64,000 bases of DNA from assembly GCF_014395225.1 (NCBI RefSeq), contig NZ_CP060723.1:1488001-1552000 (forward strand), read 5' to 3'. Below are positions 46,645-55,333 of this stretch, in pieces. The position numbers were made by a program, and so were the translations under genes. This stretch comes from Pedobacter roseus (GTDB taxonomy: Bacteria > Bacteroidota > Bacteroidia > Sphingobacteriales > Sphingobacteriaceae). Numbering within the stretch: the first letter of the stretch is position 1; each line of letters begins with the position of its first letter. The notes under the pieces are model-generated. The model ran no database searches. It was not told the origin of the DNA and saw only the letters and a list, made by a program, of their open reading frames with translations.

Positions 46645-47670
46645 TCATTGACAGCCCTCCCCCCATACGGTAATTGTTTTGTTCGCAGTGTCTATTTTAT
46701 ATTTCATCTTTTTGCCGCTCATCACGCGGATTTCTTCCATTATATTGCCAATGCTTTTGTTGGTAAACGTAGCGTTAAACCTGCAGTGGTCGAATTTATT
46801 GGTCTTCAGTTCAAAATGAACATTGTAATACCTTTCCAATGATTTAAACATATTGGGAAGGGCTACATCTTTAAAAGCAAAGCTGTTTTTAATCCAGGCG
46901 TTAACTTCGGTGATGCGCTCGTTACGGACAGTGTAATCGTGTGCTTTTAAATGGTATAATAATTTCATTCCTGGGGTAAGCAGCGAAAGTTGTTTTAATT
47001 TTCCCTCCCTGTTTTCCGAAACTTTTACTTTACCGGTACGCACCGCCACACTAAAGGTCCCGTCTTTCGGATAAGCATAAATATTAAAGGAAGTACCCAA
47101 AACCCTGGTCTGCATTTGTCCGCTATGTACTATAAATGGACTGCTGGTATCATGTTTAACTTCAAAAAAGGCTTCACCCTCCAGCCGGATATTTCTCAGT
47201 TTGCCTTTAACAAAATGTGATGGCCAGGTGAGTTTACTGCCGGCGCCAAGGTATACAATGGAACTATCTGGTAGTATCAATTTCACTTTTTCGCCCTTTT
47301 GGGTCGTTTTACTTAAAAAGGCAATGGCTGCTTGTATAGGCTCTTGTGCTTTTTTGTAGGCGTACCAACCAAACGCTGCAGAAATAACCACAACGATAGC
47401 GGCGGCATATTTTAGTATTGGGTATAGCGATCTGCTTTTTGGTTTTCGCTCTTCAATTTTGTTCCAGATTTGGTTAAGACCCTGGTTGGCTTCCGGAGTG
47501 TAATCGGCTTGATGGTTTTGCTTTTTCCATGCTTTATCCATCACCGCATGAAATTCGCTGTCGCCATTCGCCGGATCGGCGAGATAATCCAACAGGATTT
47601 TTTCCTCCTCCTGATTGGTTTTGCCCTCCAGGTATTGTTCAAATAATATTTTAATGTAATCTTGTTTCAC
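46645..47670 (-). CDS. FecR-family anti-sigma factor
   Basis: This 341-residue protein has a cytoplasmic N-terminus for sigma binding (about 1-80, with YIKILFEQYLEGKTNQEEEKIL), one membrane segment (about 86-105, YAAAIVVVISAAFGWYAY), a FecR periplasmic domain (about 120-220, VKLILPDSSIVYLGAGSKLTW and FEVKHDTSSPFIVHS) and a C-terminal STN-like/DUF4974 region (about 265-335, VALPNMFKSLERYYNVHF). It transmits occupancy of the TonB receptor to the ECF sigma factor at 49433-50047. The cognate sigma gene is unusually far upstream because a repeat array is inserted between them. Confidence 0.92.
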   Translation of the reverse strand: MKQDYIKILFEQYLEGKTNQEEEKILLDYLADPANGDSEFHAVMDKAWKKQNHQADYTPEANQGLNQIWNKIEERKPKSRSLYPILKYAAAIVVVISAAFGWYAYKKAQEPIQAAIAFLSKTTQKGEKVKLILPDSSIVYLGAGSKLTWPSHFVKGKLRNIRLEGEAFFEVKHDTSSPFIVHSGQMQTRVLGTSFNIYAYPKDGTFSVAVRTGKVKVSENREGKLKQLSLLTPGMKLLYHLKAHDYTVRNERITEVNAWIKNSFAFKDVALPNMFKSLERYYNVHFELKTNKFDHCRFNATFTNKSIGNIMEEIRVMSGKKMKYKIDTANKTITVWGEGCQ

Positions 47671-48183
47671 TTTTATACTTGTTCTTAACGCTTTTATGCT
47701 GCGCGTTACTGTATATATGCACGAGAGTTGGCATACAGCTATAGGAGGAGAAGATTTTTTTTAAAAAAAGAAGAATTAGGTAAATTAATGACCAATATCA
47801 ATTTTCAATGATCAATTAGCGAGCGCTTTAGGAGTTAGCCACGGAGACTCAGAAACACGGAAAATTTAGCGCCGATTGTCATCCTGAGCGTATTTGAGGG
47901 ATCTTTTAGGATGGGAAAATGTAAGGTGGATGATGGACATGAATAAATCAATGACCAATGACCAACAATCAATGACTAGTTAGCGATTGTCGCAGTAGTT
48001 AACTATAAACCTTAATGTTCTTAAATTCTTAATGGTAAAAATGGACTAAAATTTACGCTAATTTTAGCCACGGAGACTCAGAAACACGGAAGACTTGACG
48101 CGGTTTGTTATCCTGAGCGATAATTTATTTTATAAAAATCAATATAATGACAGATGGATAAGAAGCTGAATGCTCTCAAAGTA

Positions 48184-48281
48184 TCGTCATTTCGACCGCA
48201 GTGGAGAAATCTTTTAAATTTGATTTCGATAACTTGATAAATAGATCTCTCCATTTCGCTGCGCTACAGTCGAGATGACGA
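48184..48281. repeat. REP-like element with inverted ends, copy 1
   Basis: TCGTCATTTCGAC (48184-48196) pairs imperfectly with GTCGAGATGACGA (48269-48281). Inner arms GTGGAGAAATCT and AGATCTCTCCAT extend the stem. It is a palindromic intergenic element like the degenerate one at 4838-4931. Confidence 0.85.
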
Positions 48282-48816
48282 CTTTTCTCTTGGATTCTGT
48301 CAATGGTAGCGTAGCCGAATGATCTTTTACAATGGAAAATGTAAGGTGGATGATGGACATGAATAACCAATGATCAATTTTCAATGACCAGTTAGTGAGT
48401 GTCTCAGTAGTTAACTATAAACCTTAATGTTCTTAAATTCTTAATGGTAAAAAATGCAATAAAACTTACGCTAATTTTAGCCGCGGAGACTCAGAAACAC
48501 GGAAAATTTAGCGCCGATTGTAATCCTGAGCGTAGTCGAAGGATCTTTTACGATGGAAAATGTAAGGTGGATGATGGACATGAATAACCAATAACCAACG
48601 ATCAATGACCTGTTAGCGATTGTCTCAGTAGTTAACTATAAACCTTAATGTTCTTAAATTCTTAATGGTAAAAATGCAATAAAACTTACGCTAATTTTAG
48701 CCACGGAGACTCAGAAACACGGAAAATTTAGCGCCGATTGTCATCCTGAGCGATAATTTATTTTATAAAAATCAATATAATGACAGATGGATAAGAAGCT
48801 GAATGCTCTCAAAGTA

Positions 48817-48914
48817 TCGTCATTTCGACCGCAGTGGAGAAATCTTTTAAATTTGATTTCGATAACTTGATAAATAGATCTCTCCATTTCGCTGCGCTAC
48901 AGTCGAGATGACGA
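48817..48914. repeat. REP-like element with inverted ends, copy 2
   Basis: It appears identical in sequence to copy 1, 633 bases further on, with the same TCGTCATTTCGAC and GTCGAGATGACGA ends. Confidence 0.85.
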
Positions 48915-49227
48915 CTTTTCTCTTGGATTCTGTCAATGGTAGCGTAGCCGAAGAATCTTTTACAATGGAAAATGTAAGATGGATGATGGACATGAATGAC
49001 CAATGACCAACAATCAATGATCAGTTAGCGATTGTCTCAGTAGTTAACTATAAACCTTAATGTTCTTAAATTCTTAATGGTAAAAATGGACTAAAATTTA
49101 CGCTAATTTTAGCCACGGGACTCAGAAATACGGAAAATTTAACGCTAATTGTCATCCTGAGCGATAATTTATTTTATAAAAATCAATATAATGACAGATG
49201 GATAAGAAGCTGAATGCTCTCAAAGTA

Positions 49228-49325
49228 TCGTCATTTCGACCGCAGTGGAGAAATCTTTTAAATTTGATTTCGATAACTTGATAAATAGATCTCTCCATTT
49301 CGCTGCGCTACAGTCGAGATGACGA
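49228..49325. repeat. REP-like element with inverted ends, copy 3
   Basis: It appears identical in sequence to copies 1 and 2, 411 bases after copy 2, about 110 bases before the end of the sigma factor gene. Confidence 0.85.
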
Positions 49326-49432
49326 CTTTTCTCTTGGATTCTGTCAATGGTAGTGTAGTCGAAGGATCTTTTACAATGGAAAATGTAAGGTGGATGATGG
49401 ACATGAATAACCAATGACTAATGACTAATTAA

Positions 49433-50047
49433 CTAATGACCAATGAACCAGTGGCTAATGAACAATTGAACCACTACCAATGATATTATCGTTTCTGGCG
49501 AATAAGTCTTAAAGTATTTCCGCATGATGCTCAGCGATTTTTTGATGTGGTTGTTCACCGTGTTTTTAGAAATCCCCATTAGCTGCGATATTTCCTCGTG
49601 AGTATGGTGGTCGTTCCGGCTCATCAGGTATATCCGTTTTACCTGTGGAGACAGGCTTTCGATCGCTTCCTGTGCCAGCTGTTTAGATTCTTTGGCATCA
49701 AGTTCATCCTCGATCGCATTAAAAGATTGTTGTTGTGCTAAATTTTCACTACTGTAGGCTTTTTCCCTTGCTTTTTTACGGAGTGTGCCCAAAAAATTAT
49801 TGCGGATCAGGGTATAAAGAAAAGCATCGAAATTCTTTTCCGGGTCTACTTTAGTCCTGTTTTCCCAGAGTCTCACAAAGCTATCTTGCGTAAGTTCTTC
49901 GGCTTCTTCGCGGCAGCGGGTAAAATGGTAGGCATAACCAAATATTTTTTGGCGGTACTTGTGGTAAATTTCATTAAAAGCGGCAGAATCGCCAGCTTTC
50001 AATGCATTCAGGAGTTTTATATTTTTAAAATCTTCCAACTTTTCCAT
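49433..50047 (-). CDS. ECF RNA polymerase sigma factor
   Basis: This 204-residue protein has sigma region 2 (about 25-95, FNEIYHKYRQKIFGYAYHFT and ELTQDSFVRLWENR) and region 4 (about 130-185, IESLSPQVKRIYLMSRNDHHTHEEISQLMGISKNTVNNHI in sections), typical of the FecI-like sigma factors of Bacteroidota. It should direct transcription of the fecR-like/TonB unit downstream on the same strand. An oddity is its end: about the last 16 residues (SLVVVQLFISHWFIGH) are encoded by DNA of the CAATGAACCAGTGG repeat type that continues into the array, so the repeat appears to supply the C-terminal tail. Confidence 0.92.
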   Translation of the reverse strand: MEKLEDFKNIKLLNALKAGDSAAFNEIYHKYRQKIFGYAYHFTRCREEAEELTQDSFVRLWENRTKVDPEKNFDAFLYTLIRNNFLGTLRKKAREKAYSSENLAQQQSFNAIEDELDAKESKQLAQEAIESLSPQVKRIYLMSRNDHHTHEEISQLMGISKNTVNNHIKKSLSIMRKYFKTYSPETIISLVVVQLFISHWFIGH

Positions 50048-51526: not shown

Positions 51527-51694
51527 AACTTTTCTGAATTTCAACAACAAACTTAAAACTACTATTGTTAAGCGGGGATTAAGTTTTAAACTCCGGCTGG
51601 TGAACTGAAATGAAAAATGGGCACTGTTAATTTATGATTAGCAGATGAATTAACGTTAACATAACAATAATTAAATGTTTGCTTTTTATTGTGT

Positions 51695-51703: not shown

Positions 51704-51943
51704 GTGGTGAATATCCCGCTCTACATCTATTACGAATTGCTGATCCGTTTATCTGAAATTGAAGCCGAAATCGGACATTATGTATCCTCTACCGCCGATC
51801 ACGAAATCTGCATCATCCGTACCACCAATGGAACGATAAAAGTACCCATAAATCTTTTGAAAAAGCAGTTTGATGATCCTAATCTTATTGATAACGAAGA
51901 ATTAAAAGTATTAAGCCAAACCTTCAGGCCAAATTACCTGTAA
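51704..51943 (+). CDS. Small conserved-looking hypothetical protein, 79 aa
   Basis: The first two codons are both GTG (51704 and 51707) and no later Met is suitable, so the start is at or next to the promoter. The protein is soluble, opening IPLYIYYELLIRLSEIEAEIGHYV and continuing with a strand pair around EICIIRTTNGTIKVPINLLKK. It has no recognised family, signal or membrane segment. It is divergent from the S41 peptidase gene and lies upstream of the tRNA-like element. The good codon pattern and promoter support a real gene. Confidence 0.55.
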   Translation: MVNIPLYIYYELLIRLSEIEAEIGHYVSSTADHEICIIRTTNGTIKVPINLLKKQFDDPNLIDNEELKVLSQTFRPNYL

Positions 51944-52008
51944 ATCAGTTAAATGGGCTGCAGGTTGTTTTTTGCTTAAAAAAGTCCATGTTATTAAAGC
52001 GTTAAGCT

Positions 52009-52040
52009 TTTGGTTTGAGCATTTAAATGTAAGCTGACTT
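52009..52040 (+). promoter_or_regulatory. Promoter of the tRNA-like element
   Basis: TTTG (52009-52012), a 20-base spacer and TACTTTTG (52033-52040) make a consensus Bacteroidota promoter. Transcription would begin near 52046, about 30 bases before the tRNA-like fold. Confidence 0.6.
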
Positions 52041-52074
52041 TTTACTTTTGCGGCGATCTAAAGAAAAAGGTCGA

Positions 52075-52125
52075 TGTAGAGCGCTGGCCGGTAGCATGCC
52101 GAAGGTTCGACTCCTTCCTCTACAA
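52075..52125 (+). ncRNA. tRNA-like element lacking an anticodon arm
   Basis: TGTAGAG (52075-52081) pairs perfectly with CTCTACA (52118-52124) as a 7-base acceptor stem. GAAGG-TTCGACT-CCTTC (52101-52117) is a perfect 5-base T stem with a canonical 7-base T loop. The 19 bases between hold a GG pair in CCGGTAGC resembling a D loop and a weak TGGC/GCCG stem, but there is no room for an anticodon arm. A discriminator A follows; CCA is not encoded. This recalls the tRNA-like half of tmRNA, or a tRNA remnant used as an attachment site. A consensus promoter (52009-52040) and a terminator (52286-52330) flank it, so it is probably transcribed. Confidence 0.5.
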
Positions 52126-52285
52126 CTATTTATCCCGATTGTCATGTATCTGTTCGATTGTCTGCAGAAATAAAAACTTCATTTTTTATTCATCTTGCCT
52201 TGCTAGTTTTGAGGCATATCTATCATAGATATTAGTTATTATTTGGTTATTTGATAAGCCTAAATGGATGTTTGGCTTATTTCAT

Positions 52286-52330
52286 AAACGGGATAAATAG
52301 GTGCCTTACCGATTTATCCCGTTTTTATTT
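52286..52330 (+). terminator. Strong Rho-independent terminator
   Basis: AAACGGGATAAAT (52286-52298) pairs perfectly with ATTTATCCCGTTT (52312-52324), with T-rich sequence after it on the plus strand. It suits transcripts from the tRNA-like locus and may also serve the converging copper operon. Confidence 0.75.
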
Positions 52331-52335
52331 TATCA

Positions 52336-54846
52336 CTAATAATTAAAAGTTAATCCACCGCCAAGGCCCATATCGCTATCATAGTGCGTAGATAGTGAGA
52401 TATATTTCGTTAGTATATACCGAAGGCCTGCGGCATATTCTTTATCCGTATTCACCATAAAGTTTGCCCGTAAACGTTTCGAAACCGGGATGTCTTCCCG
52501 TCCCAGCTGAAACCTTAATTTTCCGTTACCATCAATCCTGGCGTCGGCAACAATGAGTATCGGTAGGGTATAAGCGATACCCGCCACAATGGTTTTCCGG
52601 TTTTCTTTATTGCTGATCTGCCCGAACATATTGCGTTCATCACTTCCGAAAATGTTTTTTTCATCGGGATTGAATTTTTTGTAATGATAATCGAAACCCA
52701 CATAAGGAAACAACCATTGGTTCCGGCCAATAAACCTGCCCAACATGGTTTCGCTCTCGTAACCCATCATAGCGTTGGTTCCCAAATGCCACATGGTATT
52801 GAGCGACCAACGGGTTTGTGCCAGCATCAACTGTCCATCGCTACCACTGCTTTCTATGCCTACACGCCCCATCAGGTGCGGCATCCGATCGTCCCGGAAG
52901 AGTTTGCGTTGGGCTAGTTTTGGATCGGGTACATCAGGATTGGGAGGCGAATTTTCATAGCTGAATACCCGGCCCATGCCACTCATCATGTGGTATAAAA
53001 TATGGCAATGGAAAAACCAATCGCCACCATTTTCTGTAGCGGCAAATTCGATCGTATCCCGTTCCATAGGCATAATGTCGAGTACATTTTTCATCGGGGC
53101 ATAATCTCCCTGTCCGTTAATGACCCTAAAATCATGACCATGGAGGTGCATCGGGTGGCGCATCATGCTGTTATTGTATAAAATAATCCTTAGGTTTTCG
53201 CCTTTTTTGATCAGGATTTTATCCGATTCCGAAACCGTTTTATTATCCAGTGTCCATACATAACGGTTCATATTGCCGGTAAGGTCAAATTTGAGTTCCC
53301 GTACCGGTCCTTTAGGCAATACCGTTTTTTTAGGATCGCGCAGCATGTTATAGTTTAAAGTCACGATATCGGGCTTTTCGGTGCTCATGTCCATATCAGC
53401 CATATCCATATCGTCCATTTTATCCATCTTCTTGATGTCTGCCGGCCCTGTAATTACGGTATTCATGTCCATTATCTGGTTCTGCATTTTCATTCCTTTC
53501 ATCTCTACCATATTGCCGTTCATGTCCATCATATCGTTCATCATCTTCATCCCCGCGAAATATTTCAGTTTTGGCATTTTCCCTGCTGCTACTTTTCCCC
53601 CACTTCCCAGCCATAGAGAGGCTGATTTGGTCCGGTCTTCAGGCGTGACTAAAAATTCATAATTTTTATTCTCCGGAATGGTAACCACCACATCATAGGT
53701 TTCAGAAACTGCAATAATCAAACGGTCTACCTCCACAGGTTCTACATCGTTGCCATCAGTTGCCACTACGGTTATTTTCCCGCCAGCATATTTTAGCCAG
53801 AAATAAGATGACGCGCCTGCATTGGCAATCCTTAACCTTACCTTATCGCCAGCCTTAAACTTCGGTTGCAAATATTGGTTTTCTCCGTTGATCAGGAATT
53901 TATCGTAATACACATCACTAACATCCATGGCATTCATTCTTTTCCACTCATTGACTACCTTGGTTTTGAAATTCCCGGTTTTGATGGCCTCTGCATAACT
54001 TTGTGTAGTCCCTTTTTTAATCGAAAACCAATCGGTAGCCGCATGGAGGCTTCTTTGCACTTCCTCTGGTTTCATATTGGTCCATTCGCTTAGTACCAAG
54101 GGTATAGACGGAATGTCCCATTCATTGCGTTTTTTGATGATAAAAGCACCATACATGCCAATTTGTTCCTGCAGCATGGTATGGCTGTGGTACCAGTGTG
54201 TGCCGTTTTGTATAACCGGGAATTTATAATGGTGTGTAGCACCTGGTTTTATCGGCATCTGCGTCATATTGGGCACTCCATCGTAACGGTTTGAAAGGAA
54301 AAGTCCGTGCCAGTGCATAGAGGTTTCTTCCATTAATTTATTGTGCACATAAATTTCGGCGGTATCACCCTCGGTAAAAGTTAAAGTAGGCATGGGGATA
54401 CTGCCGTTTACCGCAATAGCATGTTTAGGTTTACCACCGTAGGTAACAGTAGTGTCAGTAACATATAAATCATAGCGTACGGTTCTTGGAAGCGCATTAG
54501 AAGGTAAAGTTTTTATTGGACCAAGATTGGCTTTCGCTTTTTTAATGTTATCCATTAGGTCGGGATTTCCCATATTCATCCCCTTCATATCCATCTTTTC
54601 CTCCTCTGATCCACGCATTTCCTCATGTTCGGTTTTGCTTTTCGGAGCATTTTCCTTTTTAGCCACCAGGTTCATCCCGCATTTAGGACATTTTCCGGGT
54701 TGATCAGAAAGTACTTCTGGATGCATGGGGCAGGTATAAACCGTACTTGCCGCTTTTTCTTTCTCTTGCATTTTCATTCCTTTCATCTCCTGGGCAGAAA
54801 CGCCTAGTGAAAAGAACATTAAAATGCTGAATATTATATTTTTCAT
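52336..54846 (-). CDS. Multicopper oxidase fused to metal-binding and CopB-like domains
   Basis: The start is at 54846, giving a signal peptide (FFSLGVSAQ) and 836 residues. Residues ~37-60 are a heavy-metal-binding module (YTCPMHPEV, CPKCGM). The multicopper oxidase follows (about 120-620) with copper motifs MHWHG, HWYHSHT, HPMHLHGHDF and HCHILYHMMSGM. Between them is a Met/Asp-rich loop (repeated MKGM, MDMN units) as in CopA. Residues ~650-836 resemble a CopB-type outer-membrane beta-barrel (MPHLMGRVG, ending GGLTFNY). One chain therefore joins what are usually separate CopA and CopB proteins. It is last in a copper operon, 19 bases after the haem-binding gene. It probably oxidises Cu(I). 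Confidence 0.88.
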   Translation of the reverse strand: MKNIIFSILMFFSLGVSAQEMKGMKMQEKEKAASTVYTCPMHPEVLSDQPGKCPKCGMNLVAKKENAPKSKTEHEEMRGSEEEKMDMKGMNMGNPDLMDNIKKAKANLGPIKTLPSNALPRTVRYDLYVTDTTVTYGGKPKHAIAVNGSIPMPTLTFTEGDTAEIYVHNKLMEETSMHWHGLFLSNRYDGVPNMTQMPIKPGATHHYKFPVIQNGTHWYHSHTMLQEQIGMYGAFIIKKRNEWDIPSIPLVLSEWTNMKPEEVQRSLHAATDWFSIKKGTTQSYAEAIKTGNFKTKVVNEWKRMNAMDVSDVYYDKFLINGENQYLQPKFKAGDKVRLRIANAGASSYFWLKYAGGKITVVATDGNDVEPVEVDRLIIAVSETYDVVVTIPENKNYEFLVTPEDRTKSASLWLGSGGKVAAGKMPKLKYFAGMKMMNDMMDMNGNMVEMKGMKMQNQIMDMNTVITGPADIKKMDKMDDMDMADMDMSTEKPDIVTLNYNMLRDPKKTVLPKGPVRELKFDLTGNMNRYVWTLDNKTVSESDKILIKKGENLRIILYNNSMMRHPMHLHGHDFRVINGQGDYAPMKNVLDIMPMERDTIEFAATENGGDWFFHCHILYHMMSGMGRVFSYENSPPNPDVPDPKLAQRKLFRDDRMPHLMGRVGIESSGSDGQLMLAQTRWSLNTMWHLGTNAMMGYESETMLGRFIGRNQWLFPYVGFDYHYKKFNPDEKNIFGSDERNMFGQISNKENRKTIVAGIAYTLPILIVADARIDGNGKLRFQLGREDIPVSKRLRANFMVNTDKEYAAGLRYILTKYISLSTHYDSDMGLGGGLTFNY

Positions 54847-54865
54847 CTTTCGGTATTTATCTTTT

Positions 54866-55333
54866 TTAAAACGGAATTTGTTCAAGGCTATCTCTCGATG
54901 CTGCTGCCCAGGCCATAACCAATTTTTTTTCACTTTTACTCAATACCGCATTTTTATGGATCAATGTGTAAGATGCAATGGGCATAGTACCCTCTTCCAC
55001 ACTGTTCTCAATCGCACGGAGTTTGCTCAACTGCCTCCGGGTACTATAATGCTTAAAGTTATCAAAATTGAGCTGCGCTTTTGCTGCCTTAATGTGTTTG
55101 TTGAGATACCAGTTAACCGGTTGTATTTGAGCATACCAGGGATAACTGGTGTTATTGCTATGGCAATCGTAACAGGCTTTTTTGAGTATGCCATTTACCT
55201 GGTGAGGGATGGTAACAACCTTCGAAATATGATCTGACATAGCTGATAAATCTTTGTTTTGAACAGGCCTGTAAAACTGGGCTGCTACGATAATCAATAG
55301 CAGTCCAATTATAATTTTTTTTACGCTCAGCAT
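54866..55333 (-). CDS. Haem-binding domain protein
   Basis: This 155-residue protein has an N-terminal membrane anchor (IIIGLLLIIVAAQF) and a single c-type haem motif, CYDCHS (CxxCH), within the family pattern ILKKACYDCHSNNTSYPWYA. It ends with a helix containing LSKSEKKLVMAWAAA. It belongs to the small periplasmic haem-binding domain proteins found beside cytochromes and copper enzymes in Bacteroidota. It starts 3 bases after the DUF3347 gene and is followed 19 bases later by the multicopper oxidase, so it is co-transcribed. It may pass electrons from the oxidase, which is inference. Confidence 0.85.
   Translation of the reverse strand: MLSVKKIIIGLLLIIVAAQFYRPVQNKDLSAMSDHISKVVTIPHQVNGILKKACYDCHSNNTSYPWYAQIQPVNWYLNKHIKAAKAQLNFDNFKHYSTRRQLSKLRAIENSVEEGTMPIASYTLIHKNAVLSKSEKKLVMAWAAASRDSLEQIPF

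Follow-up and report, generated by a model that had tools for sequence, protein, structure and literature searches.

RNAs that mimic tRNA are a known kind, represented by tmRNA, the Y RNAs, mascRNA and viral structures; bacterial examples (tmRNA, Y RNAs) are few. The tRNA-like domain of tmRNA is described as consisting of an acceptor stem, a D part and a T arm, with the anticodon arm absent (PMC3929946), and the bacterial Y RNA YrlA is said to hold a tRNA-like domain as well (PMC7790460). The RNAs mascRNA and menRNA are presented as small tRNA-like molecules that are cut from longer transcripts and do not decode (PMC9777231), and animal mitochondria are reported to contain minimal tRNAs that are shortened and lack an arm (PMC2797822, PMC7730189). 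RNase P is described as measuring from the elbow along the stack of T arm and acceptor stem, and as acting on several tRNA-like RNAs that are not tRNAs (PMC4919913). For the initiator tRNA, the C1:A72 mismatch is reported to be critical for the transformylase, and pairs 2:71 and 3:70 to be important for formylation (PMC11231383).

Here we analyze a 52-nt element at positions 52075-52126 (+ strand) of a 64,000-nucleotide stretch of Pedobacter roseus DNA, which we call the window throughout. The element has a tRNA-like fold without an anticodon arm and corresponds to the upper half of a tRNA. Rfam holds no described stand-alone bacterial half-tRNA of such make, and a literature search by title and start of abstract, confined for the most part to papers available without subscription, returned no description of the RNA; we file the element as a new RNA family. 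A family of compact stand-alone half-tRNAs overlooked by ARAGORN and Rfam would be evidence of tRNA processing and elbow recognition put to new use in RNAs unable to decode, and the element would offer a natural minimal substrate, in culturable hosts, for asking which tRNA enzymes require the anticodon half.

Anatomy of the element

The initial annotation proposed a tRNA-like element without an anticodon arm, and the anatomy bears this out, as all seven acceptor pairs form, the T arm is perfect and a 5-nt linker is all that separates the D and T arms. The parts are as follows.

52075-52126, + strand: tRNA-like structure (acceptor stem, mini D arm, linker, T arm, A73, C74), scoring 72.2 bits with the covariance model R2 described below
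52075-52081 / 52118-52124, + strand: acceptor stem TGTAGAG / CTCTACA, 7/7 pairs
52082, + strand: spacer C, 1 nt, leading from the acceptor stem to the D stem
52083-52095, + strand: D arm, with 98.7% of cells paired and double-sided changes in 3/4 pairs in 38 sequences
52083-52086 / 52092-52095, + strand: D stem GCTG / TAGC, 4 bp, the last pair G-U
52087-52091, + strand: D loop GCCGG, 5 nt, with GG at its end
52096-52100, + strand: linker ATGCC, 5 nt in place of the anticodon arm
52101-52117, + strand: T arm GAAGG-TTCGACT-CCTTC, with 100% of cells paired and double-sided changes in 2/5 pairs in 38 sequences
52101-52105 / 52113-52117, + strand: T stem GAAGG / CCTTC, perfect, 5 bp
52106-52112, + strand: T loop TTCGACT, read from the sequence
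52125 / 52126, + strand: A73 and C74, a 3' end of the tRNA type (N73-C74)

Acceptor stem and T stem together make 12 bp, and the T loop, the GG of the D loop and the N73-C74 end are all present, an anatomy that, judged from the sequence, should suit a substrate of RNase P, RNase Z or the CCA enzyme. Standard annotation passes the element by: ARAGORN called 0 tRNA genes in the window and no Rfam family reached its cut-off anywhere in it, the Rfam tRNA model (RF00005) scoring the element at 20.2 bits against a gathering cut-off of 29, with its D and anticodon parts collapsed. The folding energy of the element alone is not significant (z -1.1), and that of the whole presumed transcript is weak (z -2.6; 1 of 200 shuffles was equally good). 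We take the element to be more than chance because it is conserved, not because of its folding energy.

The element is flanked on one side by a small ORF (51704-51943, + strand) and on the other by a convergent gene (52336-54933, - strand) that, by our own reading of its translation, is probably multicopper-oxidase-like. Elsewhere in the window, three nearly identical 64-aa ORFs (48176-48370, 48809-49003 and 49220-49414, - strand) lie between a sigma-factor-like gene (49433-50047) and a FecR-like gene (46645-47670).

Distribution of the fold

A DNA search of 59 genomes gave matches in 27, of which only one besides the genome's own, in a genome of the same genus (G011), covers the element. This match is 86% identical over 85 bases, and the wider locus (window 51996-52126) is 82% identical over 131 bases; the similarity ends at 52126, which is the end of the fold. 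In G011 the element sits between two divergent sigma-factor-like genes, so that its genomic place differs from that in the window. Of the remaining matches of the DNA search, most fall on an unusual tRNA-like gene with a long variable arm, described below, and cover its 3' half.

A covariance model built from the window and G011 copies (R1) found matches in at least 12 of 145 genomes of the genus and in at least 53 of 399 sampled genomes of the family, spread over 4 of 25 genera. A second model (R2), built from 38 sequences and representing the fold alone, found it in at least 18 of the 145 genus genomes (E 1e-6), a patchy spread that marks the element as dispensable. In a sample of the order, at least 118 of 300 genomes pass E 0.001 and, by hand count, at least 48 of 300 reach 34 bits or more. 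All R2 matches listed for this sample fall in Sphingobacteriaceae, and the weaker ones in five genomes (G013, G014, G023, G031, G034) are, by their coordinates, 3' halves of the unusual tRNA-like gene; in the P. roseus genome itself, the next best R2 match (23.1 bits) likewise lies at that gene. Searches of more than 40 genomes used stricter filters and scored part of the candidates, which makes the carrier counts lower bounds.

Beyond the order, 395 genomes of the phylum gave a match in 33 (E 1e-4), three of them in the family at 40 bits or more and the other 30 at 31 bits or less. No match examined outside the family is a member, as ARAGORN called an ordinary tRNA at all 17 loci examined of these 30. 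In a pattern scan of public genomes, carriers were found in Pedobacter, Mucilaginibacter, Sphingobacterium, Arcticibacter, Pararcticibacter and one Sphingobacteriales MAG; Pedobacter alluvionis, Mucilaginibacter lappiensis and Sphingobacterium gobiense are among them. Of the 44 pattern matches in named genomes, 36 belong to Sphingobacteriaceae or Sphingobacteriales; the other eight were rejected, their best model score (27.5 bits, L172) falling on an ordinary tRNA-His and the rest reaching 15.2 bits or less. No similar DNA was found in plasmid or phage collections, and the IMG/VR pattern hit (L210) has no model match at E 1, so that a plasmid or phage element is rejected. Eleven member loci gave no Rfam match above cut-off; in permissive Rfam scans the window gave a tRNA match below threshold, and the other sub-threshold matches were taken for chance.

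Covariation and conserved positions

Covariation in relatives was named beforehand as a test of the element, and it is present. Our alignment (A3) holds 38 distinct sequences from 54 loci (L077-L130), leaving out near-duplicates and the long-D-loop copies L119, L124 and L129; it was gathered with the two-copy model, which biases it toward like sequences, and its rows L088 and L117 are slightly misaligned. Across these 38 sequences, 94.0% of cells are paired and 8 of 16 pairs have changed on both sides. The covariation score is 0.317, compared with 0.160 in shuffles (0 of 500 reach the observed value) and 0.055-0.140 when the structure is slid along the alignment, and RNAalifold, run on the same sequences without a given structure, recovers the same helices except for pair 1:72. 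Five standard pair types are seen at the fourth pair of the D stem, and four at the middle pair of the T stem. This comparison of sequences indicates that the tRNA-like fold is under selection, and we consider it very probable that the element belongs to a real, conserved family of tRNA-mimicking RNAs. Support for the fold comes from this wider family, since the nine copies of the window's own subfamily have invariant tRNA-like helices and covariation measures that do not stand out from shuffles.

To describe individual positions we use the 74 parsed loci (L243 excluded), which reduce to 53 distinct parses once 8 low-score copies and 13 duplicates are removed. GG stands at the end of the D loop in 51 of 53, with a parser score that rewarded GG, and the T loop carries TTCGA in all 53, with a parser that required TCGA. 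C74 is present in 48 of 53. The linker measures 3-7 nt in every one of the 53, within the 2-8 nt that the parser allowed, and an anticodon arm is lacking throughout. At 1:72, only 10 of the distinct parses have a standard pair and 43 are unpaired, with C.A in 17; in the window's subfamily, the pair is U-A in 9 of 9 copies. An initiator-like mismatch therefore does not hold for the window copy. Pair 3:70 is U-A in 20 and C-G in 18 of the 38 aligned sequences, the window having U3-A70.

Upstream and downstream signals

The signals around the element in the window are these.

52043-52050, + strand: promoter -7 box TACTTTTG, matching TAnnTTTG
52054-52073, + strand: 5' leader hairpin CGATCT-AAAGAAAA-AGGTCG, immediately 5' of the acceptor stem, folding both here and in the G011 copy
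52240-52280, + strand: TATTTGGTTATTT and the hairpin ATAAGCC/GGCTTAT, in our own reading a diverged pre-terminator module of the relatives
52286-52324, + strand: strong intrinsic terminator, arms AAACGGGATAAATAGGT / ACCGATTTATCCCGTTT running into TTATTTTA

The initial annotation placed a consensus promoter upstream of the element. What stands of it is the -7 box, matching TAnnTTTG, which we take to be the Bacteroidota -7 consensus, whereas a scan for sigma-70-type sites found none beside the element on the + strand (the nearest lies at 51610-51638). The box is found within 60 nt upstream of the fold in 58 of 74 parsed copies, compared with 443 of 12678 random sites (3.5%) at the same loci; 16 of the 74 copies are without one in that distance. 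From the position of the box in the window, transcription would be expected to start about at the leader hairpin. In nine close relatives, this hairpin has 92.5% of its cells paired, with one pair changed on both sides and three varying on one side. Family-wide, a score of at least 12 is reached by 33 of the 74 copies, compared with 19% of random sites, and 10 copies show none in the scan; a leader hairpin common to the whole family is thus unsupported by the 74-copy scan, and the feature belongs to some subfamilies.

A terminator about 160 bases downstream was also proposed, and the terminator is real, but its distance is a matter of the window copy, since the terminators of relatives are often nearer or elsewhere. 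In 26 of 74 copies a terminator-like hairpin begins no more than 60 nt past the fold, compared with 23 of 796 random sites (2.9%), and one lies within 330 nt in 32 of 74, compared with 114 of 796; the scan found none within 330 nt in 42 copies. With its promoter box and with terminators enriched, the locus looks like a transcribed gene.

What comes after the fold differs among the copies. The tail TTATAATTGGTT, with one extra base optional, follows 16-27 nt downstream of the fold in 25 of 74 copies, and in 18 of these 25 a terminator-like hairpin begins 33-44 nt past the fold. A pattern related to this tail, A[AT]TTGGTTA[GA], is present in 26 of 74 copies no more than 330 nt downstream, where 0.0017 per copy would be expected; its carriers include three members of the window's subfamily (L078, L080, L083), and the window copy does not match it. 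Two further loci (L258, L259) have the TTGGTTAG motif, with a hairpin and a T run after it, about 120-150 nt upstream of a small membrane-protein ORF. The covariance model finds no tRNA-like fold at either locus despite the motif, so the motif is not exclusive to this RNA family; small RNAs of Sphingobacteriaceae may use the TTGGTTAG module more generally at their 3' ends.

Proposed function

Our best explanation, which we hold to be probable, is that the element encodes a small RNA that belongs to a new family and is a free-standing tRNA mimic, unable to decode. The absence of the anticodon arm excludes decoding. Taken together with a 1:72 position that is unpaired in most copies, it also means that the RNA should not serve elongation, and the frequent C.A or A.A at 1:72 would disfavor EF-Tu; on these grounds we favor a non-decoding mimic.

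Enzymes that measure the acceptor/T-arm stack would be expected to recognize such an RNA and to process it at least partly. RNase P would cut on the 5' side and RNase Z or exonucleases on the 3' side, after which the CCA-adding enzyme would act; T-loop modifying enzymes may also use the RNA. We consider processing by tRNA enzymes probable. Where the element lies upstream of a small membrane-protein ORF, tRNA-type cleavage would also free a short mRNA. We are less confident that the RNA acts in trans through a tRNA-binding protein, although this is a serious candidate; it would then serve as a regulator or decoy by occupying some protein that recognizes the elbow or the acceptor stem of tRNA. 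The decoy for tRNA enzymes suggested in the initial annotation would be one form of this explanation. More tentatively still, the family may constitute an undescribed class: a genetically free-standing 52-nt half-tRNA, processed by the tRNA machinery and CCA-tailed, in most lineages a non-elongator with 1:72 unpaired, and used outside decoding. Such an RNA could be an uncharged regulator (of formyltransferase, IF2, EF-Tu or RNase P) or an aminoacylated mini-tRNA that gives its amino acid to a target other than the ribosome.

Neighboring genes and alternative explanations

No constant gene neighbor was found among the loci examined. A Pfam search of 112 of the 134 listed neighboring ORFs gave no family with more than 7 members, the commonest being calcineurin-like phosphoesterase, histidine kinase and sigma-70, and the 25 commonest families of these nearest ORFs include no Ro60/TROVE family. 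Such varied neighbors argue for an RNA standing on its own.

The main rival to a free-standing mimic is a processing site in cis, in which the fold is a landing pad for RNase P and RNase Z whose sole job is to free the RNA downstream of it. That RNA would be the short mRNA of the membrane protein, the mRNA of a phosphoesterase or a small RNA with the UUGGUUAG tail. An ORF for a membrane protein of 50-58 aa does follow the fold in 19 of 74 copies, compared with 5 of 796 random sites (0.6%), its start lying 14-27 nt downstream in 16 copies and 124-129 nt downstream in three. A metallophosphoesterase-like ORF starts 28 nt downstream in L103 and 23 nt downstream in L111, and the conserved tail found downstream in a third of the copies is in keeping with the same idea. 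However, the downstream content varies while the fold stays, and in L124 the terminator starts 6 nt after the fold, so that nothing else is left to free. The membrane protein, moreover, is present in 97 of 251 family genomes (E 0.001; seven by weak, doubtful matches only), but a model search of 36 loci around its gene found the fold in only 5. These figures make it a recurrent neighbor and no fixed partner, and its role as a dedicated partner was rejected. We regard a purely cis-acting processing site as unlikely, though it deserves to be kept in view.

The membrane protein itself is marked by NYP, a hydrophobic stretch and KDEKKFEKDMN.SE..PEKH (loci L084-L087, L096-L101 and L252-L281), and the P. 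roseus genome carries its own copy at 833308-833457. Three of its sequences gave no Pfam or NCBIfam family at cut-off.

Less probable again, and in effect a special form of the free-standing mimic, is a decoy that would draw off toxins or nucleases aimed at the acceptor stem or T arm of tRNAs and would be retained only in lineages exposed to them. The patchy distribution and the conservation of the acceptor and T parts would fit a decoy, but the 25 commonest Pfam families of the 112 neighboring ORFs include no toxin, nuclease or defense family, and we give the idea little weight.

A transcription attenuator, in which the fold or a protein bound to it would decide between terminator and read-through, seems very improbable. 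In the window copy, the segment CTATTTATCCCG just after the fold (52123-52140) is predicted to pair with the left terminator arm (52286-52303, 89% complementary), and it repeats the right arm (52312-52334); the pairing is possibly a competing structure, or else an accident of this copy. As an attenuator would have it, L078, L081 and L083 carry a sigma-factor-like gene 269-284 nt further down the same strand, but in the window the next gene is convergent, leaving nothing to attenuate.

Relation to tRNA genes and tmRNA

For comparison with the tRNAs of P. roseus we collected 44 tRNA genes, distinct when the next 3 bases are included. All 44 have C74, so the 3' end of the element follows the local tRNA convention. 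Pair 1:72 is formed in 42 of the 44, the exceptions being tRNA-Met (U.U) and tRNA-Cys (A.G). A search for the element's 3' half among these genes, as had been suggested, found no identical one, the best match being 19 of 26 bases in tRNA-Tyr. The element was also said to recall the tRNA-like half of tmRNA. This holds as a likeness, but membership in the host's tmRNA is rejected, as that gene lies full length elsewhere in the genome (132.2 bits, 3295698-3296064) and the element is absent from the tmRNA match list.

A closer match to the 3' half of the element (26 nt) is an unusual tRNA-like gene at about 4.904 Mb of the P. roseus genome, with 23 of 26 bases identical by hand count. Common descent by loss of two arms is thus possible; judged by sequence resemblance, this gene may be the ancestor of the element, or the two may share identity elements.

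The P. roseus genome carries two such unusual genes (4903906-4904173, - strand; L003 and L161), with relatives at L041-L061 and L063-L068. Their D arm is Leu-like, their anticodon arm has the conserved sequence CCTCCTTGTCTCGGTGG and their variable region is very long; acceptor stem and T arm resemble those of the 52-nt element. ARAGORN misses them, and none is among the Rfam tRNA matches listed for this genome (150 of 508 candidates scored). In the DNA search, 24 of the 35 other genus genomes were matched through the 3' half of such genes, seven of them twice at a distance of about 200 nt. At a separate locus of the same genome (4801670-4802260, L069), three sub-threshold tRNA matches of 16-26 bits stand in a row, flanked by genes that we named by eye as von Willebrand/TROVE-like and nucleotidyltransferase-like, a layout that resembles RNA-repair operons with Y RNAs.

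The remaining proposal of the initial annotation, that the element is what is left of a tRNA gene or of an integration event, can appeal to the 23 of 26 match, but it is hardly credible given covarying helices in 38 copies, a conserved promoter box, no identical 3' half in 44 tRNA genes, a 3' end with a single occurrence in the window when up to 3 mismatches are allowed and so no second att-like copy there, and the absence of integrases from the 25 commonest Pfam families of the 112 neighboring ORFs; covariation rejects it as a full explanation, though it may still describe the origin of the element.

Comparison with known systems

The non-decoding mimic that we favor can be set beside each of the systems named at the outset. 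With tmRNA (RF00023), it shares the upper half of a tRNA without an anticodon arm, but the element has no mRNA-like part and no insert between its D and T arms, and CCA is not encoded. The alanine identity pair of tmRNA is the G3.U70 of alanine tRNA, whereas the element family has U-A or C-G at 3:70 in all 38 aligned sequences.

The likeness to YrlA is that of one non-decoding tRNA mimic to another. YrlA is laid out with a long Ro60-binding stem, in contrast to the 52-nt fold, which is open at its acceptor end and finishes in a tRNA-type 3' end; the predicted structure of the presumed transcript in the window contains no long stem enclosing the fold. The RNAs mascRNA and menRNA are mammalian and the element is bacterial, and mascRNA retains a small anticodon-like arm.

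Most copies of the family share with the initiator tRNA an unpaired 1:72, G-C at 2:71 and often C-G at 3:70. The unpaired 1:72 of the initiator disfavors EF-Tu. Unlike the initiator, the element has no anticodon arm, and hence neither CAU nor the three G-C pairs, and the window copy has U1-A72. The minimal tRNAs of animal mitochondria, finally, are the reverse case: they drop the D arm, the T arm or both and still decode, whereas the element keeps both of these arms and drops the anticodon arm.
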